Of a stretch of 16,929 nt of DNA, positions 1,666 through 16,929 are shown in pieces. The stretch comes from Saprospiraceae bacterium UBA7328 (GTDB lineage Bacteria > Bacteroidota > Bacteroidia > Chitinophagales > Saprospiraceae). Location of the stretch: NCBI GenBank assembly GCA_002471345.1, contig DKPS01000060.1:1-16929 (forward strand), written 5' to 3'. Positions within the stretch are counted from its first letter, which is position 1. Each line of letters opens with the position of its first letter. The position numbers and the translations under genes are program-made. Under the pieces are notes generated by a model. That model searched no databases and had not been told where the DNA came from. It saw nothing but the letters and a program-made list of their open reading frames with translations.

Positions 1666-4600
1666 TTATTCTACTTTGATCATTTTCTTAGTAATCACAT
1701 TGTCATCAAAAACTAATTCGTACAACAATACACCCACTATAGAAACCTCCTCTTTTCTTACTACAATGGTATTTTGACCTGTACGGAGAATAATTTTTCG
1801 ACTTAGAATTTTTCTCCCCTGGACATCGTAGATATTAAAGTCAGCATCTCCGTCACTTTGTGCAATGACGGTAATCGCCGTACTTTCTTTCCATGGATTA
1901 GGTTCATTTTGACTAAGGTCAAATTGATTGTCGTCATTTCTTATCTTTTCCAATGTGTATTTTCTCGCATCGAGATCAGTATAAATTTCTGGCATGGTTG
2001 CATTCAACCCTAATGCCAAAAGCTTCTTTTCTATATCTATCGCACCATCAATCTCAATTGAAAACAGTGGCTCATTGGCTTTAATCTTCATTGGAGACAA
2101 TGTAGAAAAACTGAATGCCAATCTATCGTTTTCATTATCCATATGAATGTTTTCAGAAGTCATATTAATCTGACCATTGCTGATTCTTTTAATATTTATA
2201 GAGTTTGGCAAAAAGAATTCTCCTTGTATTCCATTGAAGTTTGATAGGGTAGGAGGGAAAAGGGACAATTGCTTCTGTCCTTCTTGAATCTTGAGTTCCC
2301 AGCTCAACGTTAGTAGTTCATTAGATCTTGATTCTGATTTTTCAATTCCATTGGCGACAGCATTGCCAGATAAGTCTCCCACTTTGATACCTGTCCAATC
2401 AATTTTCATATTCTTGGAAAGAGCATCCAAATTGTATTCTTCTACAATTGGGGATGAGAGATTTAGCCTTGATTTTATATCATCTCCATTCCAAACAAAT
2501 CTCCAACTCGTATTATTCTTGACTTGATGATCTATACCTAGAATAATTTTTCTTAAATGGACTAAATCAATAGCCGAAATATTGGCATCGTTATTCACAT
2601 CAGCGGCTATCATGTTATATCCATCATTAATGATTGATTTTCCTAAAATGTGATTTTGTATTTGAATCAAATCTAATGTGGATACTCCATTGCTCCAGTT
2701 GTCATCTTTGAACGGAATTATATTATATTTTCCACCACTTGCCATGCTCCCAAAGGCATATTGGCCTGAGTTATCGGTTTCAGAATGATTTAAAATAGAG
2801 CTAAGGGATTCTAGCCCTACGGCTACTTTTGAGACGGCTTCATTATGTATGCTTGTTACTGTACCTTCTATTATCAGATTATTGCCTTGAACTTTCTCTA
2901 GATATATCATTTGGCTATCTATGTCGATCACTTTAATTGGACTTACACAAGCCTCAAATGCTGTCCATGTTCTTATGATCTTCAGACATCTTACTGTTGT
3001 GTCCTGGGGATTGACTAGAAGGTCTTGATGACTAAATCCTATCATGTTACATCTACCCTCAGCAGCACTAGGAGAACCTGTTATAGCAGTTGTAGCATCT
3101 CCTTCATCACATGTGATTAATGTTGTGTCTGATGGATAAGTTATTGCTCGTTTATTTGTATTCCCGTCATGGATTATTGTAATGATTTGTATACAACTGG
3201 ATTCGATACCAGACATAGTACGAGCAGTAAAGGTTCTACTTATTGAACCCAATCCACATTTATCTAAGCTTTGAGAATTATTCACTAATACGGTGTCCAT
3301 ACAATTACCAAAGATTACTCCGTCGGTAAGAGGTCCTGAAGCTGTTATCACATCGTTTGGATCTATTTCTAATATTTTTTGATTGCCTTGCTCTACTACA
3401 GATCCAAATTCTGAATTATCAACTGTTATAAAATTGCAATCAACTGTCAAATTTGGCGGACAATGAATGCTTGGGATGTCCTTATCCTGAATCTCTACAC
3501 TTATCATGCAAATACTGCTGTGCCCAGATTCATCAGTGGCTGTCAGTTCGACCATTACTTCAGATCCAACATCAGCACAGCAGAATTGAACCTCTGGGCC
3601 AGGTGTGATCGTCTGCACATCACATGAAGATGACATTCTCCTGGCTGAGAGTGTAACATTGCCACAAGCATCATATGACCCATCGTCAAATTTTTCAGCA
3701 GGTACGGTCGCTACCCCATTATTATTCAGTGAGATGACCAATTGCGATAAGCAGAAAGAAACCGGTGGGGTATCATCCTGAAGAATAACTACAAATGTAT
3801 CATTGCTTATGTTATGACAACCATCATATGCTTGTACATATAAAGTGTGAGTGTCTATTGGAAGTCTTAATGTAGTTCCGTCGTAGAATGTAGGTAACAA
3901 ACCTTGGAATATGCTAATAGTGACGTCCTCATCACATGCATCTTCTGCTGTAAGACTAGGAAGAGAGAATGTGACTAAACAGTCACCAGATGTATTTCCT
4001 GAGGCTATTATGGTGTCTGGCACAGTAATAACTGGAGGAACGGTATCTATCAAAGTGATTAATTGAGGGCTTTCTATTATAGTATCTCTATAAGTACAGA
4101 AAGTCTGTCTTACAGTCCACATTCTCAATATTTGTTTTTTACAAGGTGTATTGACTATCACTCTATCCACAAATTCTGAGCTTATCAAACATACTCCTAG
4201 GGTATCCGTGGAAAGATCAAAGCCCATAAACATTGGACCACCAAAGTTTACAATTTGGAGTTTATTTAAATCATTGAATGCTTCGCTGCACGCCACTATT
4301 GTGTCAGTAGGAAAGGATATATTATTGATTTTTGGAGTTTTAATATATACATCTGTAGTACATGTATCTGATATATTGCCAGCAGCATCTATAGCTCTAA
4401 ATGTGCGTCTACTTACACCTATGATGGTGTCTCCTTCGCAGAGTGATTGAAACTCCTGATTTACCAGTTCTATTGTTACATCATTATCACAAAAATCAAA
4501 AGTAGATGGATAACGGATAGAATCCATTTCATAGCACATGATTGTATCTCGTTCAGCGCAATCTATTACAGGGGGCAATTTATCTTCTATAAGGACTTCA

Positions 4601-5340
4601 GTCCAGCATGTTGATCCCCATTGTTCGCATCCTGCAATACTGATCATCACGTTTATTCTTTCATTAACCTTAAATTCGTCAATTGGATTTCCAGAAAGAT
4701 CTAAATAATTAATATTAAAAGAGTCAGCGCTTAGTCCTGTTGTATCTGTTAAAAGCATTTGTGGAGTCACCTGAACACCGCAAGAGTTATCAATACTGAC
4801 ATTTATTCGACCATAACAGGCAATGACCCTACACCTACACGAAGCATCTGCTTGAATTTCAGCCATTGTATTGCATCCCGTTGCATTTTTGGCATCATTT
4901 ATAAATAACATTGGATTAATCGCATCCACTATTGCACAACATTGACTAAGCAGCGGGTTTGTACTAATAGTAATAAATCCAGTAACAACATTTAATCCAG
5001 CAAGTGCATTAATATTTGTGAGGTTAGGATTGTTCTCAATCATTAATTGATTGGCTTCCTGTAAGCCGTCTAACCCATTGAGTGTTGTAAGCGGAGGAAC
5101 GTCACGAATCATCAGGATACCTGTAACTACTGATACTTTAAATAAAGGAGAAAGGTCGGTAATATCGCTACTTCCCATAACCATAGAAGTAATCTCAAGA
5201 TTCCCGTCTATGGTATCACACGAGACAAAAGCATTTACATCTGCCTGTGTAAAAAGTACCACATTACCTAGACAAGTAGTAGCTATTGCTTTTTGGGAAA
5301 AAGAATAAATGAAAAGAAGAATGAAGAGTCCCTTTTTCAT
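1666..5340 (-). CDS. Secreted multidomain T9SS cargo protein: L-domain head, HYR-like region, dockerin-like, cohesin-like, sorting domain
   Basis: Seen: 1,224 codons, ATG at 5340, TAA at 1666. Residues 1-20 form a signal peptide (MKKGLFILLFIYSFS then QKAIA). Residues about 21-170 are leucine-rich, receptor-L-domain-like repeats (for example NPNLTNINALAGL) ending with a CC pair. Residues about 174-810 are cysteine-bearing beta-sandwich units with HYR-like signatures such as EDKLPPVIDC and DTVPPVITVP. Residues 877-935 are dockerin-like: two loops, DDNWSNGVSTLD and DVNNDANISAID, keep EF-hand spacing. A GIKVGDLSGNA segment and a cohesin-like beta-rich stretch (ANEPLFSIEI) follow. Residues about 1139-1224 are a T9SS type A sorting domain (NEPNPW, FNIYDVQGRKI, final KKMIKVE). 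Inferred: exported by Sec and then T9SS to the surface, probably adhesive or structural. No catalytic motif was seen. From residue 174 it is colinear with the upstream giant protein, with an extra segment at about 618-810. No Shine-Dalgarno is evident, as is usual in this phylum. Confidence 0.92.
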   Translation of the reverse strand: MKKGLFILLFIYSFSQKAIATTCLGNVVLFTQADVNAFVSCDTIDGNLEITSMVMGSSDITDLSPLFKVSVVTGILMIRDVPPLTTLNGLDGLQEANQLMIENNPNLTNINALAGLNVVTGFITISTNPLLSQCCAIVDAINPMLFINDAKNATGCNTMAEIQADASCRCRVIACYGRINVSIDNSCGVQVTPQMLLTDTTGLSADSFNINYLDLSGNPIDEFKVNERINVMISIAGCEQWGSTCWTEVLIEDKLPPVIDCAERDTIMCYEMDSIRYPSTFDFCDNDVTIELVNQEFQSLCEGDTIIGVSRRTFRAIDAAGNISDTCTTDVYIKTPKINNISFPTDTIVACSEAFNDLNKLQIVNFGGPMFMGFDLSTDTLGVCLISSEFVDRVIVNTPCKKQILRMWTVRQTFCTYRDTIIESPQLITLIDTVPPVITVPDTIIASGNTSGDCLVTFSLPSLTAEDACDEDVTISIFQGLLPTFYDGTTLRLPIDTHTLYVQAYDGCHNISNDTFVVILQDDTPPVSFCLSQLVISLNNNGVATVPAEKFDDGSYDACGNVTLSARRMSSSCDVQTITPGPEVQFCCADVGSEVMVELTATDESGHSSICMISVEIQDKDIPSIHCPPNLTVDCNFITVDNSEFGSVVEQGNQKILEIDPNDVITASGPLTDGVIFGNCMDTVLVNNSQSLDKCGLGSISRTFTARTMSGIESSCIQIITIIHDGNTNKRAITYPSDTTLITCDEGDATTAITGSPSAAEGRCNMIGFSHQDLLVNPQDTTVRCLKIIRTWTAFEACVSPIKVIDIDSQMIYLEKVQGNNLIIEGTVTSIHNEAVSKVAVGLESLSSILNHSETDNSGQYAFGSMASGGKYNIIPFKDDNWSNGVSTLDLIQIQNHILGKSIINDGYNMIAADVNNDANISAIDLVHLRKIILGIDHQVKNNTSWRFVWNGDDIKSRLNLSSPIVEEYNLDALSKNMKIDWTGIKVGDLSGNAVANGIEKSESRSNELLTLSWELKIQEGQKQLSLFPPTLSNFNGIQGEFFLPNSINIKRISNGQINMTSENIHMDNENDRLAFSFSTLSPMKIKANEPLFSIEIDGAIDIEKKLLALGLNATMPEIYTDLDARKYTLEKIRNDDNQFDLSQNEPNPWKESTAITVIAQSDGDADFNIYDVQGRKILSRKIILRTGQNTIVVRKEEVSIVGVLLYELVFDDNVITKKMIKVE

Positions 5341-5451: not shown

Positions 5452-8400
5452 TTATTTTATATGTATCATTTTGTGACTGTATTTCTTATCACCTAGTGAA
5501 ACTTCATAAAGGAAGACTCCTTCTTGCAGAAGATCTTTTTTCTGAATTGTAAGAATATTTGGACCCATAACTGGCAAATAATTTTTAGAATAAATAACAT
5601 TACCTGAAATGTCATAGATCTTGAAAATAATTTCATGATTATCAGTGCTGAAGAATGTGATCTTAGTCTCCTCCGTCCAAGGGTTTGGCTCATTTTGTAT
5701 TAAGGAGGAGTTTGTTTGCTCAGACTTTCTTTTTGATAAAGCAAATGTCATAGCCTTACCAGAAGAATAAATTTCAGGATCTAATCTTCTGCGATTTATA
5801 GTGATATCTTCTTCGGATGAAGAGATACCTTTCAGTATGATACTGAATAATGGTAATTCGGGATCCATTGAAGATTCGAATTCATTATTTAGACTTAAAG
5901 CAATTGCATTTGATTTATTATCAAGGTATAAATTTTGTGTTGTCAAAGCCAACTGACCACTTATAAGGTCATTAACATACAGCCCAAGTGGGATGGAAAA
6001 TTCCATCTGCAGACCTTGTAATTTAATCTCATTATTGGTGTAAAAATTGAGGATAGTTTGATTTTTACCCTGGTTGATATCCCATTCAATTGTTTCATTT
6101 ACTCCTGTTCTGGACTCGGATGTAAGAAGTGCATTTGATGAAGCATTGCCAGAGAGATCTCCTATTTTGATACCTTTCCAGTTGACTTCCATGTCCCTAT
6201 TCAATGTAGGAATGTCATAGACCTCGATCAATGGTTCGTTCAAACTAAATTCATTAGGTAATTTCTGATCATCCCAGATGAACCGCCAACTGGTGTTGGT
6301 TTGCACTTCATCAGAAATACCAATTATTAATTTCCTCAGTTGTACTATATCTATTGCCGAAATTGACCCATCATTATTGATATCTGCTGCGATTAAGTTG
6401 TATGGATCTGCAATCGAATTATTTCCAAGAATGTGGCCTTGTATCAATATTAAGTCTAAAGTCGACACACCATTGAGCCAATCATCATTTTTATATGGAG
6501 ATAGACTATAATGACCACCCGTAGGCATGTCAATAAAATGATAATCACCATTACTACCTGTTCTAATGGCTATCTCTTCTAAACTGTTGACATTAGTTAA
6601 ATTGACTTTAGTAGACTCGATCACCTCATTTTCTTTATTAAATATTTCGCCTTCAATAGTTACTAATTGGCCCAAGTTCGTATTGCACCCAGGATTTGGA
6701 CTGGTGTCTTCCACATTTACTGTAATCATACAAATGCTAAAATTTCCTGCAGCATCAGTAACACGGAGAGCTACCATAACATCTTGATTCAAGTCATCAC
6801 AGCAGAAACTTACATCATCTCTAAAGACTAGATCACTTCCAATACAAGTAGTGGACATTCTTCTTACATCCATAGATACATTCGAACATCCATCAATAGA
6901 TGCTAAATCAAAATCCATTGCATCAAGAATTGCCGAACCATTACTTAAATTGACCACTTTATTACTCAGACAAAGAGTAAGAGGTGGAGTATTGTCCTCA
7001 ATGATGATGATGACTGAATCTCTACTTATATTTTGACAATTGTCTGTGGCCTGTACGAACAGCTTGTGAGTTCCAACCGGCATGGTGAGAGTCATTAATG
7101 AATGGACGAAGTTCGTGGCTAAGGAATCTGAGTAAACCTGTAAGTCAACCTCTTGATCACATACATCATCGGTAGTTAATCCTGTTAATTCGAATGTTGC
7201 CATGCATTCTGCATTCGATGCATTTGTTATGATCAAAGTATCAGCTAAAGTTATAATCGGAGCCGTTGTATCTACAAATGTGATAAGCTGAGGACTTCTG
7301 ATTTCTCTGTCTCTTGAGAAACAAGACCAATGAGTTATAGTCCACATTCTCACAATTTGCTTTTTGCAATCAGTGTCGACTAAAACTTGATCTTCATGGA
7401 AAGCCGAGATATTACATATAGGCATGGTGTCCATTGTAAGGTCGAATCCATTTAGCATTGGAACTCCGAATACTGCATCTTTCAGATATGTTACAGAGCT
7501 GTTTAGACCATCGCAGGATATCACTGAATCTGAAGGAAAAATTGTGTTGTTGAAATCAGGAGATTGGACAAAAATAATAGATGAACAAGTGTCGGAAGTG
7601 TTTCCTTGATTGTCCACAGCTCTGTAAGTCCTTGTGATTTTTGCTAGAATAGAATCATTAGAACAAAGCTCTTCATATTCATCTCTGAGAAGCTGTATAG
7701 TGATATTTGTATTGCAGAGATCATTGACCTGTGGTGTGGGCAGATGGTTGAGATTATCACAAGTCACAGTATCTCTTGGTGTACAAATGATGTTTGGACC
7801 TATTTTATCTTCAATTAGGACTTCAGTTTCACAGGAACTACTTGGACAAGATGGTACACTTGTTACCACTCTTATTTTTTCATTTACCTTGACCGATGTA
7901 ATTGGGTTTCCGAAGAGGTCTAAGTATTCAATTTGGAATTGATTAGAAGAAAATGGAAGTGTGTCAATAAGTAATATTGAAGGTGTCAATGAAAAAATAC
8001 AATTATTGTCCAAGCTCACATTAATGCTTCCTTTACATGCCAAAGGCCCACATAGATTTAATTGTGTTGGATCTGCATCATCTTCGTCAGCTATGCCAAT
8101 ATCATTGATCTGATTGTCACTATTTGATCCGGGTACACCACCTAAATCATTACCAAAATCTGAATCTGGTTGTGAGTCCAAATCATAATCTGAAAGGTTA
8201 ATTCCACCAAGCCCACGAGTCAATATGATTTCTGCTTGATTGAGAATATTGTTATTGGATGCTGTATTCTTGATTCTGAATGAAATAAAAATATCCGACG
8301 TTTCTCCTCTACCCACATCGATTGTAGGTATGTATTCGAAGTGATCTCCTTTAGTTTTCCAATCTATATTTAAGTCAGGCAAAAATTCTAACCCGTTTTG

Positions 8401-9231
8401 AGCCTTATCAGCTACCTCTACACCCGTGGCGTCCATAGTGCCTTGATTAATCACTTCTATTTTATAGGTTACAATATCGCCAAAGTAGAATTCTGATTGG
8501 TTAGAATGAATTGTCTTTCTTAAAGCAAGATCATAGATTGGAACTAATGCGATGTCATGATCATCTTCATCATCATTTTCATTTGCTATTTGATCATCGT
8601 CTACATCCCCATCATTTTCATCCAAATTGTCAGGATTACTATCTATATCAGGGCCCTTATTTCCATTTTCATCCGAAAAATCACTAATCTCGGCATAATT
8701 GATCAGGTTGCTCAACTGTGTGGTGCTGTCTACACTTAAGAATAAGGATATGTCAAAAGAGCTGTCAATTTTTAAAATGTCATTATATAAAAACTCCGGA
8801 TTTCCTAAACTATTGATTTTCCATTCTGGTTCGTTTTCAGGTAAAAATGTCATGCCATGTGGGATATAATCCGTGACTAATATGTCTTTAGTATTATTGT
8901 TTCCTTGATTGATCAAATTGATTACAAATTCTACAGTATCGCCCCATTGAATTGGAAATTCAGATCCCGCATATGACTTTCTCAATGCTAAGTCTAAGAA
9001 ATTTACAGATGCGGGATCATGATCATCTTCATCTCCTCCAGTTTTACCGTTTTGACCAATTTCGTCATCCGAAGGAGAAAAAAGGACTCCTCCATCATCA
9101 TTCTTATTGTCGGCATCAGCATAAGAATCTACATCAAAAGAGGTTGCTTCATCTCCATTAATAAAGAAAAATCTGCTAATCTCTGCGTAGTTGGTGACAG
9201 ACTTATTTGTGAAAAGTAGAGTAGGGGACAA
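5452..9231 (-). CDS. 3' half of a giant T9SS-secreted adhesin, separated from its 5' half by an in-frame stop
   Basis: Seen: the longest start-to-stop reading begins with TTG at 9231 (1,259 codons), but the same frame is open up to 9285, right after a TAA, and the TTG lies inside a DUF11-like repeat with no signal peptide. Domains by residue from the TTG: 1-76 the second half of DUF11-like repeat 4; 77-230 and 231-392 repeats 5 and 6 (DLALRK starts, YNQG/INQG core, YAEIS, acidic DDEDDHD tails); about 394-851 HYR-like cysteine-bearing units (VEDTSP, DTTAPIITL); a carboxypeptidase-regulatory-like strand set; 913-972 dockerin-like with DINNDGSISAID; a cohesin-like stretch (DPELPLFSIIL); and about 1175-1259 a T9SS type A sorting domain (NEPNPW, FKIYDISGNVI, final SHKMIHIK). 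Inferred: this is the C-terminal portion of one protein with the 9286-16929 frame. On its own it lacks an export signal, so an independent function is unlikely. Confidence 0.85.
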   Translation of the reverse strand: MSPTLLFTNKSVTNYAEISRFFFINGDEATSFDVDSYADADNKNDDGGVLFSPSDDEIGQNGKTGGDEDDHDPASVNFLDLALRKSYAGSEFPIQWGDTVEFVINLINQGNNNTKDILVTDYIPHGMTFLPENEPEWKINSLGNPEFLYNDILKIDSSFDISLFLSVDSTTQLSNLINYAEISDFSDENGNKGPDIDSNPDNLDENDGDVDDDQIANENDDEDDHDIALVPIYDLALRKTIHSNQSEFYFGDIVTYKIEVINQGTMDATGVEVADKAQNGLEFLPDLNIDWKTKGDHFEYIPTIDVGRGETSDIFISFRIKNTASNNNILNQAEIILTRGLGGINLSDYDLDSQPDSDFGNDLGGVPGSNSDNQINDIGIADEDDADPTQLNLCGPLACKGSINVSLDNNCIFSLTPSILLIDTLPFSSNQFQIEYLDLFGNPITSVKVNEKIRVVTSVPSCPSSSCETEVLIEDKIGPNIICTPRDTVTCDNLNHLPTPQVNDLCNTNITIQLLRDEYEELCSNDSILAKITRTYRAVDNQGNTSDTCSSIIFVQSPDFNNTIFPSDSVISCDGLNSSVTYLKDAVFGVPMLNGFDLTMDTMPICNISAFHEDQVLVDTDCKKQIVRMWTITHWSCFSRDREIRSPQLITFVDTTAPIITLADTLIITNASNAECMATFELTGLTTDDVCDQEVDLQVYSDSLATNFVHSLMTLTMPVGTHKLFVQATDNCQNISRDSVIIIIEDNTPPLTLCLSNKVVNLSNGSAILDAMDFDLASIDGCSNVSMDVRRMSTTCIGSDLVFRDDVSFCCDDLNQDVMVALRVTDAAGNFSICMITVNVEDTSPNPGCNTNLGQLVTIEGEIFNKENEVIESTKVNLTNVNSLEEIAIRTGSNGDYHFIDMPTGGHYSLSPYKNDDWLNGVSTLDLILIQGHILGNNSIADPYNLIAADINNDGSISAIDIVQLRKLIIGISDEVQTNTSWRFIWDDQKLPNEFSLNEPLIEVYDIPTLNRDMEVNWKGIKIGDLSGNASSNALLTSESRTGVNETIEWDINQGKNQTILNFYTNNEIKLQGLQMEFSIPLGLYVNDLISGQLALTTQNLYLDNKSNAIALSLNNEFESSMDPELPLFSIILKGISSSEEDITINRRRLDPEIYSSGKAMTFALSKRKSEQTNSSLIQNEPNPWTEETKITFFSTDNHEIIFKIYDISGNVIYSKNYLPVMGPNILTIQKKDLLQEGVFLYEVSLGDKKYSHKMIHIK

Positions 9232-9285
9232 TGTGATTTCTATAGATGTAGAGTCTCCAGGTGCAATTTCTTCTGTGATTAGGTA

Positions 9286-9288
9286 TTA
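9286..9288 (-). other. In-frame TAA splitting the giant adhesin gene
   Basis: The codons before it (9291-9289 and up) and after it (9285-9283 and down) are in one frame, and the translated sequence continues the DUF11-like repeat with no gap. Aligned to repeat 3, both have exactly 21 positions between the conserved Trp and the PGDS motif, with the stop just before a conserved Tyr. Repeats 2 and 3 have A-T-Y where this copy has A-stop-Y; repeats 1, 5 and 6 have N, L and E before the Tyr. No homopolymer lies at the site, and no frameshift is needed. A single base change from a sense codon such as GAA, AAA, CAA or TTA explains it. Confidence 0.9.
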
Positions 9289-12200
9289 AGCAATCGTGTC
9301 ATTTATAGAAACCCAATCTTCATCTTTTAGAACAAGTCCTAGTGGTATATAATCGGTTATCGTGATGTCTGTGATTACAACATTACCTTGATTGTATATA
9401 GATATAGCAAAAGAGATTTTATCAGTTTCTGTAATATACTCCTGAGTGACCAATGTCTTTTTTAAAGCCAAATCTACATATTGAATAGAAGCCACATCGT
9501 GGTCGTCCTGATCACTATTTTTATCATCAATACTAAGTGATCCCGTGCCATCTCCAAACAAATAATTGTCACTTTCCCCTTTCACAATGCCACCTTGATC
9601 GTTTGCGATTAATGTATCAGGAGAGCTGTCTTTGTCAATTAAAGTGTTATTGATAGAATTATTCCCAAAAGTGTCAGCCATAAAGCTGATTTCCGCGGTA
9701 TTGATATGTTCTTTTTGACCAAATGCTTCCTTGAAAATGCCATTTAAAGAAATGATTGTAGAGTCTCCAGGAAGGAGTATGTTTTTAAATTCATAAGTGG
9801 CTGTAGTATTATTTGTAAGTGCCCACCCTGTATTACCTGAGGCTGATAGCAAATCTAAAGAAGGTGGGATGTGTTCTGTAATGTGAAATTCAGAGGCAAC
9901 TATATTTCCTTGATTATAGACATGGATATCAAAGGTTACCTCGTCTCCGTGCAAGTAAATACTATCAGGATATCGAAGCTTTTTTAATAAGGCTAAATCA
10001 AATTCTTTTAAAATGAAACCGAAGTCTACTGTGCTATTTCCATTTTTGTCTAATGTTTCTTGTGAGCCAGGTGGATCTTCATTAGTAGGTTCATCTCCAA
10101 ACAAGAATACAGTGTCACTGCTCACAGCTTGTGGGATTTTGCTGTGTAGTCCATACACACCATTGTCATCACCATCTACGTCGTTTTCTGGTGATATTGG
10201 GTTGTCTGGATCCTCATTTGGACCTACACCCAGGCTGTTAACTCCACCACCACTTGAACTCGAATAGTCATGAAGTTGCCCGTTGATTTCAAAATTAGAT
10301 GCAGAAACGGCAGTGATATATTTCCCATCTGCCAAATTTTCAAACAGAAATACTCCTTCTGCATCAGTAGTATCAGATTCGACATATTCACAGATGCCAG
10401 ATATTGAATTAATATAATACAGATCAATAATTACATCGCCTATTCCAGTTTCATTGTCTTCTCTAAATCCGCTGTTGTCTTGGTCCCACCATACTTGATT
10501 TCCTAGACTTTTACGTGCTAAAACTACTGCTGCGGGGTCAGCATCATCTTCATCAGTTAATGGGTTGTTGTCAAAGGGTGAGCCATGTCCACTACCAAAA
10601 ATGGAGTTGTCAGAATTTGAATATACTTGACCACCCGCATCATTGAATTCATTTTGATCATAAATTCCATCATAATCACCGAAAACAAATAGCCTATCAA
10701 TTGATTCAAGATAGCTGCCATGGCCATCATTGATTAAAGTAGATTTAAGAACTCGAGATCCGCTTATTTCAGCCCTATTTACATGGTCATTATCATTTCC
10801 CTCGCCTCTTTCTACAAGTAATGATATCTCTATACATATGGAATCCATAGATTGAAGTGCTGTTCCATTCGAGAATCCAGATGTAATAGAATATGTTGCT
10901 ATTCTAGAGGTGGAATCATATTTCCATCCATTTGCAATGTTAGAAGTTGAATAGGCATAGCCCACGGGTATATAGTCAGATATTATGATAGAATCACTTT
11001 GGACTATTCCTTGATTATAGATACAAATTTCAAATACAGCGACCTCGCCAGGAATATAGTTACCTGAATGTGAGGACAAGGTCATCTTAAGTGCCAAGTC
11101 ATGTACGCATAGTAGAGCTGGATCAACATTGTCTTGATCAGTGCTGTCCACAGGCCCTAAGGAGGTGGCAGAACCATCACCGTACCATTCATCATCTGAA
11201 GGAGTAAGAACAGTACTTCCTCCATTATCGGTTTTTATACTATTTAACTCGCTATCACAATCATTAATCCATGACCCATTAATATCTTTTGCTCCACTTA
11301 TTTCAGCATAATTGATAAAATCTAATATTTCACCATTCTGAGGGTTTTCTATTTTGAGAAAGAGAGAAATTGAATCCTTTTCATTTTTTTCTAGTGTGCT
11401 TTTGTCCCAGAGATAATTCAATTGATCATTAGAATGAAGAGACCATCCTTCATTAATCTCTCCAATTTCATTTTTTTCTATAAATGAAAAACCAGTACGA
11501 ATGTAATCCTCAATTATCAAAGTGTTTATAGGCCTGTTTCCTTGATTTTGAAGTGTAATTTGAAACTCAACTGTATCGCCATATTTTATTGAAAATGGAT
11601 CATTTACAATAGTTTTTATTAGGGCAACGTCACTACTGAGTATTATTACGGAATCCACAGCTCTACACCCATTAATGTCTTCTACAGTTACTCTATACAT
11701 TCCTTCATCAAGCCCTGTTATATCTTCTGTATCATTGCTATCATTGATACCGTCATTTTCCCACTGATATGTTACAATATCTTCACCCTCTACTGTTAGG
11801 TCTATGGCTCCTTTCTTGTTACTGCCTTCTATATGTGAAATTGTAAATGACAGTATGGGGGCTATGGTCTGACTCACTTGAACTGAGGCATTAGCTGTAC
11901 ATCCTGCAGCACCTATATCAGTCACAACGACTTCATAGAAACCAGAGTCTAAATTTGTTATTATGGAATCAGTACTAAAATCGGGTATGCCATTTTTAGA
12001 CCAGGCATATGTGAAAGGTCCGATACCGTTTATTTCGATATCAACTTGTCCATTTGCATTGTCACAGGCATTATGACTCGCTATGGCAGATACTGTTAAT
12101 ACAGAAGATGGTTGTAATTCAATCATCAATGCTTGAGAACAATTCAATCCATTTGAAACGGTTACTTCATATTGACCTGGTGCAAGACCTGAACGATTTT

Positions 12201-15200
12201 GAGGTTGATTATTTCCATTCAGATCAGCCCAGTCAAATGTGTATGGATTGATTAAACTGTCTTCTTCAAGGAGAATAAAGATTTCTCCATCATCCATATT
12301 GCATGAAGGCATGATTGAAGAATCAGAAACCATTGGATGAGGCAGTTCTGAGATTTTCACAGGTTGTCCTTGATGAATACACCCAAAATTATCTGTTACA
12401 AATACTTGATAGGTACCAGCTTCGAGACTGTCCAAATCTTCTGATGAATTATATCCAGGTGTGCCATTTTTGCTCCAATTAAAACTAAATGGGGGTGCCC
12501 CATTTGAAACTGAAACGTAGATATTATTTTCTTCATTACAGCTGTTTTTTGAAATTGGAATCACTACTATATCGGGAATATTGTTCTGTATTATGTCAAA
12601 AGTATCCGAAACTGTACATCCGTTTGCATCAGTAAGAGTAACACTGTATTCAGCAGGTTCTAAGTTGTTTTGATCTTCTTGATTGCTATTTGAAATAAGC
12701 ACACCACCTTTAGACCATATGAATGTGAATGGCTGAGTTCCCTCTGCTATAGTTAAATCAATAGCTCCGTCATCACTATTACAATGAGTGGAATGAGAAA
12801 TATTCGGTTGAATGGAAGGTTCAATAATTGAATTCAATATTACAAAAGTAGAATCAGAACATCCAGCAGCATCAGTAATAGTAACAGAGTAGGCTCCATC
12901 ATCGAGCCCAAATCTATTCAGAGAATCATCATTAATATGAACTTGAGGCTCAGACCATTGAATATCAAAAGGAGCAGTCCCGTTAATAATGGTTAAAGAG
13001 ATGGATCCATTAGGATCATCACAAGTAGGATCAGCGTGAGATTCAGAAAAAGAAAGAATAGGTGTGGTATTGATCACCACGGCAATAGAATCGGTACATC
13101 CATTAGCATCAGATACAGTCACTGCATAAGTGCCTTCACCGATATTTCCTATATCTTGACCATCATCTGTTCCTGCAATATGTTCCCAATCATATGTAAA
13201 AGGTGCAGTACCATTGCTAATGGAAAGGTCTATACTTCCATTATCAAGATTACAAGTAGCATGAGTCGAAGTGGCGGATAAAGTAGGACTTATGATATCA
13301 ATAATGGTAAAGGAATCGATTACCTCACAGATGTTATTAGTAGCTGTGACATAGTATGTCCCGGCAGAAAGTCCATTGATGTCTTCTGTATTAGCTCCAT
13401 TGCTCCAAGTGATGGAGGAGTCACCAGAGATGGAGATATTGATGCTTCCGTTATCGGCCGAACAAGTTTCATTAGTTGAGTTATCAAATGTGAGACTAGG
13501 GCCACTGATGTTAGAAAGTATAACAGAAGTAGAATCAGAACATCCGACAGCATCAGTGATAGTGACAGCGTAAGCTCCATCATCGAGACCAAACCGATTG
13601 AGTGAATCATCATTAATATGAGCTTCTGAAACTGACCATTGGATATCAAAAGGAGCAGTCCCCGTATTTATTGTCAAAGAGATAGACCCTTTAGCATCAT
13701 CACAAGTAGGATCAGAATGAGATTCGGAAAAAGAAAGAATCGGAGCGGAATTGATCATCACAGCAACAGAATCAGTACATCCATTAGCATCAGATACTGT
13801 CACTGAGTATGATCCAGCACTAAGATCAGAGACATCTTGGCCATTATCAGAACCCACAATGTGGGCCCAGTCATAGGTGAAAGGGCTGATTCCTCCATTT
13901 ATAGTAAGATTTATGCTGCCATTTGACTCTTCACAACTAGAATTGTTTTGGATTGAAGAAAGGGTGGGAGGGAGTATTTCATCTATTGTAAATATTGCAA
14001 AAGTCTCACAAACACCATTTCCAACTGTCACAGTATATTGTCCAGTTGAAAGGCCAGTGACATCTTCAGATGTAGGTCCGTGAGACCATGATATTGTAGA
14101 TTCATCGGTAATATTTAAATCTATACTTCCATTTGAATTGCCACATTCTTCATTAATAAGATTCACTAGGGTTACACTAGGACCGTTTATAACATCTACT
14201 GTGAAGTTGTGCAAACCTATACATCCATTAGCGTCAGTCACAGTTAAATTGTAATCACCTCCTTCAAGATTTGAAAGATCTTCAGCATTATCATTTCCAG
14301 AAATATGAGCCCAATCAAATTGATATGGTTCAAAACCAACTACACTCACATCTATACTTCCATTTGAATTTCCACATGTATTGTCACTCACCACTCCTTC
14401 ACTTGAAAAAGTGTGAACATATACGTCCATTCTTAAAGTGTCAAAACATCCTGTATCATCTGTGACAGTCACAATATAGGTGCCTTGATTATTAGACGAT
14501 GCAGGAAATATGTATGGATGAGGTTGATTATCACTAAACCCATTTGGGCCAGCCCAATTATAGGTAAATGGAGGATTTAATCCAGTCACATCGGATGTGA
14601 TTAGGAGTGAGTCTCCTTCACATGGAACATTAGACCTTAGAGTAATTTGTGGTTTGTTACAATTATACTCACCAGTGAATCCAAAGTCTATGCTGTGATC
14701 ATTTTTGCCCCAATCCGATGTTTCTAAAGTAGCAACAATATCATTTATTACAAGTCGGCCATTGTTATCTCTCCTAGTACCTGAAATACCTTGATTTTCA
14801 GCAGAAGTTGGTAAATGGGTAACAATATTAAATGAATTTTTGAAAGCCAAAATACCTGGATCAGACAAGTAACTGGGAATTTTCACTTGATACACCATAT
14901 TGGCTTCTACTTTATTAGCAGAATTCACCCATGTTTCTGTGTTCAGACTATTATCATTGCCATCAAAACTGAAGGCATATCTTCCATAACCATCAGTCGT
15001 TGTACTTGCTACTTTAAATTCGTCACCATCAGGATTTGAGCCATCTGTTGTATTGCCATTAGGATCCTTGTAGAGTTCTATTAAAACATTTGATATACTA
15101 CTTTCACCAGGATCCATGAGACCATCTTTGTCCTCGTCCCACCAGACGTAATTACCTACCTCAATTGGTGCTGGGTCACAGAGCAGTTCTAAATCACCTA

Positions 15201-16929
15201 CTCCTGATCCTTTACTAAAAGAAGAAGAAAAACTAAATGGGTCTCCTCTATAGATTTCCATTGTTCGGTTAGCTCGACCTGTGAAGTTATCCATCCAAAC
15301 CAGTCCATTTGAGAATGAATTAATTGGATCTGCAGTAGGAAACATTACTTCTTGAGAACCCCACTTGATGGCTAGGCCACCAATTCCAGAATTATGATTT
15401 CCATTGTACCAAAAATCTCCCCAATAGAATGACTTGCCCCCTAAGCCAGTAGAGTTATGAGGATTTGTACTTGTACGATTACCTGCAATTCCATTATTCT
15501 CTATTTCGAAGCTATCTGTATCTGAATTGAAATAAGCCCTCAAAATATCACCATGGACAAATGCTTTGTCACCTGTGCCATCAGAATTTTGATCTGGTGC
15601 AGGAGAATCATATCCAAGTTGGATAGTAGTTCGATCTGCAAACCCCATTATCAAGGCTCCATCATCATCAAATTCTATATCAGCAAAGATGGGACTACCA
15701 AGTTGTGCATCTGTAATGTTTTTTACATATGGTTCTATCGTGCTATAGTCATCAGACCATTTTACCCAATATGGAGATCCTTCTACAAAAACATCCCGGT
15801 AATAATTCAGAGAAAATTCTAATTCTTGATTCCAAACCCTAGTAGTGAAGTTGTATGAGTAGACTAATGCCGTGAGATCATTACAGGCTGCATCATTAGC
15901 ACAGTTGCTACTACTGGCATCACAAACAACTCCTACATAAAGTTTATTACGTCTCACCTTAAGTCCCCATGGCCTAGCTATTCCATTCGTGCATGGAGCA
16001 TTATTTAACCATGGTTGATTAGGAATTTCTTGTGCACTACCTGCATTAGTGCTATTCGTCGCAATGCCATAGACTTTTCGATCAAAAAGATTTACAGCAA
16101 AAAGTGTGTCCTCATCAGTAGAAATATCTATATCTCCAAACCCTACCTTTCCTACTTGAGGGAATGTGGATGCATCTATATTGTCACATGTTCCACAAGG
16201 CCCTTCTTCTCCAAATCCATCACCATCTCCAGGAAATCGGGAAGCATCGCTTTGTACGATTCCTGCATTATTCCCGAAGTCATAAAAAAGGTCTGCACTT
16301 GCATTACTCGCCCCAATCACATGGGAATAAATAGCACCAATTCCATATGGTCCCATTCCGGTATGCCTTTTTAAAAGCGCAGATAGAAAAACTTCTTTTG
16401 TTGATCTTTTATAAGCTAATCCCCAAGTGGAACCAATTTGTTGGGTTTGTATTTCATTTTTGTAAGATGATACAGGGGCGTCACCATTGGCACTATAATC
16501 GAATGTAGCCAATCCCGTATTTGTAGCGTTTGAAGAGTGTGCACTTGCTCCATTAACGTAGCATGGAATCATCCATATTGGGTCATTTGCGCTACAGTAA
16601 TTTGCAGGGTCATAAACTCCTAGATTTACATCACATAAATTGCCTCTGGCAAATTGAATCAAAGAGGATGACTCGATTCCATGACTTCCTACTTCTAATC
16701 CTGATGGTACAGCGAACTCAATTCTATACATGGAATCCTTATTGAGTCCACTAAACTCATATTCTCCAATATCATTAGTTGTTGTGGATTGAAGAAATCC
16801 AGTATTGGTAAAAAGAGAAACATTCACAGAGGATACACCAGGATCATTCATATCCTGTGATCCATCATTGTCAATGTCATTAAAGACAATTCCACCAATT
16901 TGAGCTACTGAACATGTGTCATCATATGG
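9286..16929 (-). CDS. 5' part of a giant multidomain surface adhesin-like protein (N-terminus beyond window; ends at premature TAA)
   Basis: Seen: the frame is open from the window edge at 16929 to the TAA at 9286, 2,547 codons. The first Met (16851) lies inside an SdrD-B domain (IGGIVFNDIDNDGSQD precedes it), so it is not the start. Residues from the edge: 1-112 SdrD-B; 113-588 a propeller-like module (TWGLAYKRS, GFGDIDIS, RPWGLKVRRNKLYVGVVC); 589-754 SdrD-B (VGNYVWWDEDKDG); 757-841 Ig/PKD-like; 842-1766 twelve SprB-like repeats; 1767-2138 two DUF11-like repeats; 2139-2306 SdrD-B (GNQVWWDQDNSG); 2307-2483 a third DUF11-like repeat; 2484-2547 the first part of a fourth. Known: SprB of Flavobacterium is a giant T9SS-exported gliding adhesin carrying repeats of this type; SdrD-B folds bind calcium. 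Inferred: a fibrous surface adhesin. As sequenced it ends mid-repeat without a sorting domain, which would prevent T9SS export unless the stop is read through or is an error. The true start and signal peptide are outside the window. Confidence 0.88.
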   Translation of the reverse strand, partial: PYDDTCSVAQIGGIVFNDIDNDGSQDMNDPGVSSVNVSLFTNTGFLQSTTTNDIGEYEFSGLNKDSMYRIEFAVPSGLEVGSHGIESSSLIQFARGNLCDVNLGVYDPANYCSANDPIWMIPCYVNGASAHSSNATNTGLATFDYSANGDAPVSSYKNEIQTQQIGSTWGLAYKRSTKEVFLSALLKRHTGMGPYGIGAIYSHVIGASNASADLFYDFGNNAGIVQSDASRFPGDGDGFGEEGPCGTCDNIDASTFPQVGKVGFGDIDISTDEDTLFAVNLFDRKVYGIATNSTNAGSAQEIPNQPWLNNAPCTNGIARPWGLKVRRNKLYVGVVCDASSSNCANDAACNDLTALVYSYNFTTRVWNQELEFSLNYYRDVFVEGSPYWVKWSDDYSTIEPYVKNITDAQLGSPIFADIEFDDDGALIMGFADRTTIQLGYDSPAPDQNSDGTGDKAFVHGDILRAYFNSDTDSFEIENNGIAGNRTSTNPHNSTGLGGKSFYWGDFWYNGNHNSGIGGLAIKWGSQEVMFPTADPINSFSNGLVWMDNFTGRANRTMEIYRGDPFSFSSSFSKGSGVGDLELLCDPAPIEVGNYVWWDEDKDGLMDPGESSISNVLIELYKDPNGNTTDGSNPDGDEFKVASTTTDGYGRYAFSFDGNDNSLNTETWVNSANKVEANMVYQVKIPSYLSDPGILAFKNSFNIVTHLPTSAENQGISGTRRDNNGRLVINDIVATLETSDWGKNDHSIDFGFTGEYNCNKPQITLRSNVPCEGDSLLITSDVTGLNPPFTYNWAGPNGFSDNQPHPYIFPASSNNQGTYIVTVTDDTGCFDTLRMDVYVHTFSSEGVVSDNTCGNSNGSIDVSVVGFEPYQFDWAHISGNDNAEDLSNLEGGDYNLTVTDANGCIGLHNFTVDVINGPSVTLVNLINEECGNSNGSIDLNITDESTISWSHGPTSEDVTGLSTGQYTVTVGNGVCETFAIFTIDEILPPTLSSIQNNSSCEESNGSINLTINGGISPFTYDWAHIVGSDNGQDVSDLSAGSYSVTVSDANGCTDSVAVMINSAPILSFSESHSDPTCDDAKGSISLTINTGTAPFDIQWSVSEAHINDDSLNRFGLDDGAYAVTITDAVGCSDSTSVILSNISGPSLTFDNSTNETCSADNGSINISISGDSSITWSNGANTEDINGLSAGTYYVTATNNICEVIDSFTIIDIISPTLSATSTHATCNLDNGSIDLSISNGTAPFTYDWEHIAGTDDGQDIGNIGEGTYAVTVSDANGCTDSIAVVINTTPILSFSESHADPTCDDPNGSISLTIINGTAPFDIQWSEPQVHINDDSLNRFGLDDGAYSVTITDAAGCSDSTFVILNSIIEPSIQPNISHSTHCNSDDGAIDLTIAEGTQPFTFIWSKGGVLISNSNQEDQNNLEPAEYSVTLTDANGCTVSDTFDIIQNNIPDIVVIPISKNSCNEENNIYVSVSNGAPPFSFNWSKNGTPGYNSSEDLDSLEAGTYQVFVTDNFGCIHQGQPVKISELPHPMVSDSSIMPSCNMDDGEIFILLEEDSLINPYTFDWADLNGNNQPQNRSGLAPGQYEVTVSNGLNCSQALMIELQPSSVLTVSAIASHNACDNANGQVDIEINGIGPFTYAWSKNGIPDFSTDSIITNLDSGFYEVVVTDIGAAGCTANASVQVSQTIAPILSFTISHIEGSNKKGAIDLTVEGEDIVTYQWENDGINDSNDTEDITGLDEGMYRVTVEDINGCRAVDSVIILSSDVALIKTIVNDPFSIKYGDTVEFQITLQNQGNRPINTLIIEDYIRTGFSFIEKNEIGEINEGWSLHSNDQLNYLWDKSTLEKNEKDSISLFLKIENPQNGEILDFINYAEISGAKDINGSWINDCDSELNSIKTDNGGSTVLTPSDDEWYGDGSATSLGPVDSTDQDNVDPALLCVHDLALKMTLSSHSGNYIPGEVAVFEICIYNQGIVQSDSIIISDYIPVGYAYSTSNIANGWKYDSTSRIATYSITSGFSNGTALQSMDSICIEISLLVERGEGNDNDHVNRAEISGSRVLKSTLINDGHGSYLESIDRLFVFGDYDGIYDQNEFNDAGGQVYSNSDNSIFGSGHGSPFDNNPLTDEDDADPAAVVLARKSLGNQVWWDQDNSGFREDNETGIGDVIIDLYYINSISGICEYVESDTTDAEGVFLFENLADGKYITAVSASNFEINGQLHDYSSSSGGGVNSLGVGPNEDPDNPISPENDVDGDDNGVYGLHSKIPQAVSSDTVFLFGDEPTNEDPPGSQETLDKNGNSTVDFGFILKEFDLALLKKLRYPDSIYLHGDEVTFDIHVYNQGNIVASEFHITEHIPPSLDLLSASGNTGWALTNNTTATYEFKNILLPGDSTIISLNGIFKEAFGQKEHINTAEISFMADTFGNNSINNTLIDKDSSPDTLIANDQGGIVKGESDNYLFGDGTGSLSIDDKNSDQDDHDVASIQYVDLALKKTLVTQEYITETDKISFAISIYNQGNVVITDITITDYIPLGLVLKDEDWVSINDTIA
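10012..10515 (-). other. SdrD-B-like domain 3 inside the DUF11-like array
   Basis: Begins RKSLGNQVWWDQDNSGFRED, the usual opening of SdrD-B (Cna-B-type, calcium-stabilised) domains with a D-x-D-x-x-G loop, then GIGDVIIDLY and GVFLFENLADGKY, and closes with TVDFGFI. It also has a loop rich in Asp and Asn (DVDGDDNGVYG). It is about 168 residues, a little longer than typical. It is inserted between DUF11-like repeats 2 and 3. Confidence 0.8.
11632..14406 (-). repeat. Array of twelve SprB-like repeats
   Basis: The 925-residue stretch divides into twelve units averaging 77 residues. The consensus has a Cys about five residues before an NGSI motif, then PF-YDW, a short loop, L-AG-Y-VTV-DANGC and an SxxVxI strand. 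Most units carry two Cys, one before NGSI and one in the DANGC position. The third and sixth units of the block layout carry a shorter loop (ISWS or ITWS), and the last unit lacks the first Cys. Known: SprB repeats occur in T9SS-secreted adhesins of Bacteroidota. An Ig/PKD-like domain (14407-14661) precedes the array. Confidence 0.88.
12826..14187 (-). repeat. Two gapless 681-base tandem blocks (three SprB-like units each)
   Basis: Block A is 13507-14187 and block B is 12826-13506. Each encodes 227 residues, aligning end to end without a gap. By hand count 142 of 227 residues are identical, but unevenly: about 34/71 in the first unit, 43/77 in the second and 65/79 in the third. Shared DNA strings include ATCATCACAAGTAGGATCAG in the third units. 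This indicates duplication of a three-unit segment, with later homogenisation of its third unit. Confidence 0.88.
14668..15165 (-). other. SdrD-B-like domain 2
   Basis: Opens IEVGNYVWWDEDKDGLMDPG with the D-x-D-x-D-G calcium-type loop, followed by ISNVLIELYKDPNG and DGYGRYAFSF, and closes SIDFGFTGEY. It includes a loop with NPDGDEF typical of longer bacterial SdrD-B versions. It links the propeller-like module to the Ig/PKD-like and SprB-like region. Confidence 0.85.
15166..16593 (-). other. Propeller-like module of unknown function between two SdrD-B domains
   Basis: About 476 residues with repeating blade-like strands: TWGLAYKRSTKEVFLSA, then GFGDIDISTDEDTLFAVNL, RPWGLKVRRNKLYVGVV and FADIEFDDDGALIMGFADR. 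It holds two cysteine-bearing loops (GPCGTCDN and CDASSSNCANDAAC) and ends in SKGSGVGDLELLC. Similar uncharacterised segments are, to my recollection, found beside SdrD-B domains in large secreted bacterial proteins. No catalytic motif was recognised; ligand binding is a guess from the fold. Confidence 0.55.
16594..16929 (-). other. SdrD-B-like domain 1 (N-terminal edge at window end)
   Basis: The frame upstream of the first Met reads IGGIVFNDIDNDGSQDMNDPG, a canonical SdrD-B opening with a D-x-D-x-D-G calcium-type loop, then SSVNVSLF and IGEYEFSGL. This proves that the coding sequence extends beyond the window and that the Met at 16851 is internal. Confidence 0.85.

Follow-up and report, generated by a model that had tools for sequence, protein, structure and literature searches.

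An in-frame TAA in a giant putative T9SS surface-protein gene of a Saprospiraceae bacterium: probably a recent nonsense allele

Two long open frames follow each other on the minus strand of a Saprospiraceae contig with a single TAA between them, and the question is whether they are one gene or two and, if one, whether the stop is a mutation, an error of the draft assembly or a codon that is read through. The window (the whole stretch of DNA analysed, 16,929 nucleotides) has this TAA at 9286..9288 (minus strand, read as 9288..9286) and thus does contain the single in-frame stop within a long minus-strand gene on which the original prediction was built. Upstream of it lies an open frame of 2,547 codons (9289..16929, minus strand) and downstream one of 1,277 codons plus stop (5452..9285, minus strand), which has the phase of the upstream frame and terminates at the TAA 5454..5452. 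The upstream frame stays open to the end of the window, which stops at a scaffold gap (NN) of the 17,113-base contig C108. The 5' frame therefore has the predicted stop, but its start lies past the gap and not within the window; a hand estimate against a paralogue on contig C67 suggests that very roughly 135 N-terminal residues, including the signal peptide, are absent from it. By direct count the Trp-to-PGDS spacing across the TAA, with the stop counted as one, is 21 positions, the same as in the preceding repeat, as had been claimed. The TTG at 9229..9231 (minus strand), which had been considered as a start, proved to be only the first formal start codon 3' of the TAA, with no leader after it.

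That the two frames belong together follows mainly from comparison with an uninterrupted homologue, P0095. When 5.8 billion proteins were searched with the two frames joined and the stop written as X, 798 of the 1,987 candidates scored were matches. The best 120 were considered, and among them P0095 matches a 501-residue region of the joined frame over its whole length with 61% identity. P0095 (3,019 amino acids, encoded on a 62,190-base ENA contig) is colinear with the interrupted gene through the site and carries a sense residue at the column of the stop. The last 1,347 upstream residues, the X and the downstream piece together form a 2,625-residue alignment with it that has a single gap column; identity amounts to 972/1,727 residues (56%; 10 gap columns) for the upstream frame and to 799/1,277 (63%) for the downstream frame. 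Because of this long alignment to an uninterrupted protein the arrangement is not a chance split, and the single gap column together with the common phase on either side of the TAA rules out a frameshift at the site, in line with the prediction. The precomputed domains of P0095 are SprB, DUF11, dockerin-like and sorting domain, as in the interrupted gene, from which it differs in having no stop at the site and in an N-terminus that looks incomplete, since it begins inside the SprB repeats.

The one-gene reading was to fall if orthologues proved to be two separate genes with a signal peptide after the stop, and the comparison came out in its favour: the closest relative among the matches listed, P0095, is continuous across the site, and a leader 3' of the stop, as expected of a separate gene, was not found. 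Among the best 120 matches of each protein search, few of which were aligned, no relative was seen in which a separate downstream gene starts at this place. Judged from the sequences, the interrupted frames are one gene, which would have about 3,960 codons in full, and they show what characterizes a nonsense-interrupted gene, namely an in-frame stop, one phase and an uninterrupted relative. The paralogue on C67 of the same genome is an uninterrupted frame of 2,579 codons with a leader; it resembles the interrupted gene in the N-terminal region, the DUF11 repeats and the C-terminal part, with 32–35% identity in the main matches, whereas the SprB stretch was unmatched in the genome comparison. 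One related locus was found in the named genome collection, in a Saprospiraceae MAG, and many of the named protein matches are also from Saprospiraceae. The literature, as far as its text was open to the search, held nothing on the interrupted gene and no paper joining DUF11 with type IX secretion and Bacteroidetes.

Pfam and NCBIfam models place SdrD_B, SprB and DUF11 before the stop and DUF11, dockerin-like, weak HYR-like and T9SS type A domains after it. The upstream frame has an SdrD B-like domain (PF17210, upstream residues 9–82; 16684..16905, minus strand) and a SprB-type repeat region (11680..14412, minus strand, approximate limits set by eye) with six stretches matching PF13573, the best at residues 1219–1249. 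DUF7507/DUF11 matches lie 5' of the stop, and DUF11 stretches are found in the region read with X. By their NQG landmarks six DUF11-type repeats can be discerned by eye, and the TAA falls within the fourth (approximate limits 9106..9477, minus strand; landmark at residue 2513, stop at 2548). The downstream frame contains a dockerin-like domain (PF00404, downstream residues 940–986; 6328..6468, minus strand) and, at its C-terminus, a T9SS type A sorting domain (TIGR04183, downstream residues 1200–1274; 5464..5688, minus strand), which scores 23.1 bits against a cut-off of 23; PF18962 reaches 19.3 bits on the same piece, under its cut-off of 27. By TIGR04183 the gene thus has the C-terminal sorting domain typical of T9SS cargo. 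Of the predicted "giant T9SS adhesin", T9SS therefore holds, narrowly, and "adhesin" denotes a resemblance in the SprB and DUF11 repeats. Correctly foreseen was that the upstream product is without the T9SS sorting domain and the downstream piece without a leader.

The best explanation, to which we assign a probability of roughly 0.6, is that the TAA arose by a recent nonsense mutation in the gene of a giant surface protein exported by the T9SS, in the Saprospiraceae or a near lineage. An in-frame nonsense break is an ordinary kind of event. From the three options originally offered, nonsense mutation and base error both remain, and programmed readthrough is without support. No other stop interrupts the downstream piece, and when its rate of change was compared with that of P0095 against six outgroups, chi-square was at most 1.04, so that faster change after the stop was not seen. 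Since the downstream half is neither decayed nor faster, the break should be recent, or not real, or read through. With three other outgroups, the rates of the upstream half were unequal, the difference going either way (chi-square 5.2, 17.3 and 13.5).

If the stop is real, translation would end inside the fourth DUF11-type repeat, and the truncated product would reach the periplasm by means of a signal peptide encoded off the contig. According to a published account (PMC12618676), proteins exported by the T9SS have a Sec signal peptide and, at the C-terminus, a domain recognised for export. Because the stop at 9288 removes the C-terminal domain, the truncated product should come to a halt in the periplasm and would not be moved over the outer membrane, and the 3' half would presumably yield no useful product. 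In that case the allele would cause a loss of function, which the intact C67 paralogue may buffer.

That the stop is instead a base error or a strain-mixing artefact of the draft assembly (5.1 Mb, 288 contigs, 96.5% complete), the gene being uninterrupted in the population, is less likely and is the main rival. Base errors are plausible because there are several other in-frame stops in the genome and because C108 ends in a duplication of strain-variant type: past window base 16929 and the NN follows a repeat of about 16490–16673 in another frame, 169/182 bases being identical to the contig's own interior, which looks as if two strain variants had been scaffolded together. In 1.19 Mb of the genome (82 stretches and the window; of 87 stretches, 5 were all N and were dropped) a homologue or a domain model spans 7 in-frame stops, which are distributed over 6 genes, versus none convincing in 0.72 Mb from four relatives. 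Over 45,944 codons the homologue scan showed no frameshift. A further hint of base errors comes from a gene close to a contig end that resembles tRNA-Phe but has a different anticodon. Against an error speaks P0121, which has the same downstream piece. It stands for 8 sequences clustered at 90% and located on 2 contigs, the larger of which (24,168 bases) exceeds C108, and its 1,259 residues correspond to the downstream piece from the same formal start. Its sequence departs from that of the window at two other positions, one of them a cysteine kept in P0095. It suggests that the break also occurs in another, slightly different copy, which may not be independent if it stems from the same reads as the window. 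A near-identical uninterrupted protein, which should outscore P0095, is absent from the best 120 matches of the joined-frame search. Against a real allele counts that an upstream product matching P0121 is absent from the best 120 of the upstream-frame search, perhaps as a result of being cut short by contig ends. Also against an error, a scan by codon usage yielded 5 frameshift-like candidates in this genome versus 2 in the controls; these are unverified and leave room for real decay. The excess of stops may reflect base errors, strain mixing or real decay.

The supported stops, which are 5 TAA, 2 TAG and no TGA, lie in the gene of the window, a glycosyltransferase (C3), mqo (C39), a TPR-kinase (C272), a T9SS-type gene (C265, two TAA) and a short gene (C110); the support over the stop is modest for C272 (TPR_MalT under cut-off) and C110 (63 bits). 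The scan of the genome had given 44 candidates, most of which were, by eye, adjacent genes starting a few codons further on or antisense frames. Scanned by an equal rule, the controls gave 12 candidates, none of them convincing by eye, and the genome itself 18. The homologue scan listed 27 stops in the genome, of which 4 were counted (the window's, the two in C265 and the one in C110) and 23 were dropped by eye; four of the latter, on re-inspection, proved to lie beyond the normal end or start of a gene. In the controls it listed 4, all from one alignment at one locus, and these were dropped too. All supported stops are on contigs of less than 60 kb, which make up about two thirds of the sample, a weak pattern with so few genes. 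Five further probable interruptions were left uncounted, as no homologue or model clearly spans them: those on C9, C132 and C30 and two TAG that a second gene on C265 may carry. The T9SS-type gene on C265 (L029) is split by in-frame TAA at 5019 and 5736; control open frames align over both, the second lying opposite a gap in the query. The mqo (L130, 1376–2851, minus strand), the only one found in the genome, has an in-frame TAG. In the family, 25 of the 100 genomes searched, this one included, have an mqo match that passes the cut-off, and this genome is the only one of the 25 with a stop in it; a weak match in one other genome, far below the cut-off, also has one.

Readthrough of the stop, programmed or tolerated, which would yield the full protein, is very improbable. 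It would account for the undecayed downstream half, and the preponderance of TAA with TAG and without TGA among the supported stops would suit it; from codon opportunity (TGA 0.29), however, the probability of finding no TGA among seven is about 0.09. If readthrough were programmed, the stop should be conserved in relatives together with the continuation, but in P0095 the site is occupied by a sense residue. The stop is followed by T, which makes a strong termination context in Escherichia coli. prfA is intact, and TAA is the stop of 160 of the 299 open frames of at least 250 codons counted in 47 stretches and the window, antisense frames included, the others ending in TGA (73) or TAG (66). 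No suppressor tRNA was found: the family search, in which 150 of 356 candidates were scored, gave 20 matches, and ARAGORN, run on their loci, detected none. Patterns for suppressor anticodons occurred at the level of backward controls (UUA 27 versus 29, CUA 16 versus 17), and on 24 of these 43 matches ARAGORN found only a serine tRNA. Recoding of TAA alone is ruled out by the TAG interruptions, and recoding to one amino acid by the differing residues of homologues at two sites. Still less credit is due to the broader proposal that the lineage tolerates in-frame UAA and UAG genome-wide, by a suppressor or leaky release, and still makes its giant surface proteins and its only mqo; TAA and TAG without TGA, the undecayed downstream half and the lack of a frameshift in the homologue scan are compatible with it.

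The tRNA-Phe-like gene lies at 94–167 of stretch L250 (C222), 27 bases off the contig end. The encoded tRNA has short arms, an anticodon arm like that of tRNA-Phe and the anticodon TAA, which would read UUA and not the UAA stop. In 39 relatives, 3 with this anticodon arm have GAA and are called tRNA-Phe, and their acceptor and T stems differ from those of the C222 tRNA. A tRNA-Phe was not found in the genome by pattern. The C222 tRNA may be the result of a base error or simply an odd tRNA.

Two separate genes, the second starting from the TTG at 9231 or later, would agree with the prediction of P0121 as a separate 1,259-residue protein but are extremely unlikely, as the TTG falls mid-repeat, is followed by no leader (best 18-residue mean hydropathy 0.21 versus 2.06 for the C67 paralogue and 1.42 for the next gene) and lies at a site over which P0095 is continuous, and as the one full Bacteroidota-type promoter motif found on the minus strand is at 3820. 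The −7 part of this motif by itself occurs 14 times on the minus strand, once at 9476. The next gene (1666–5340, minus strand) encodes a T9SS-type protein with a leader of its own and a receptor L-like domain near the N-terminus; it is a relative of the interrupted gene's C-terminal half, with 44% and 36% identity in two stretches.

For annotation, the result means that two proteins otherwise listed apart are halves of one gene. The unusual number of in-frame stops in this draft genome calls for a check of the reads before decay or recoding is claimed. Should the stop be real, it would be a clean case in which a genome has very recently lost a giant exported protein while retaining an intact paralogue.

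Among known systems, a recent nonsense allele has its counterpart in the bacterial pseudogenes interrupted by a nonsense codon, which likewise have a single in-frame stop in a gene that is otherwise open and colinear; compared with these, the present break, if real, would be very recent, decay being not yet visible. As a protein, the full product is presumably akin to the SprB-type giant T9SS surface proteins of Bacteroidota, with which it has in common the SprB repeats and an export via T9SS predicted from the sorting domain. It differs from them in also carrying DUF11 and SdrD_B domains.
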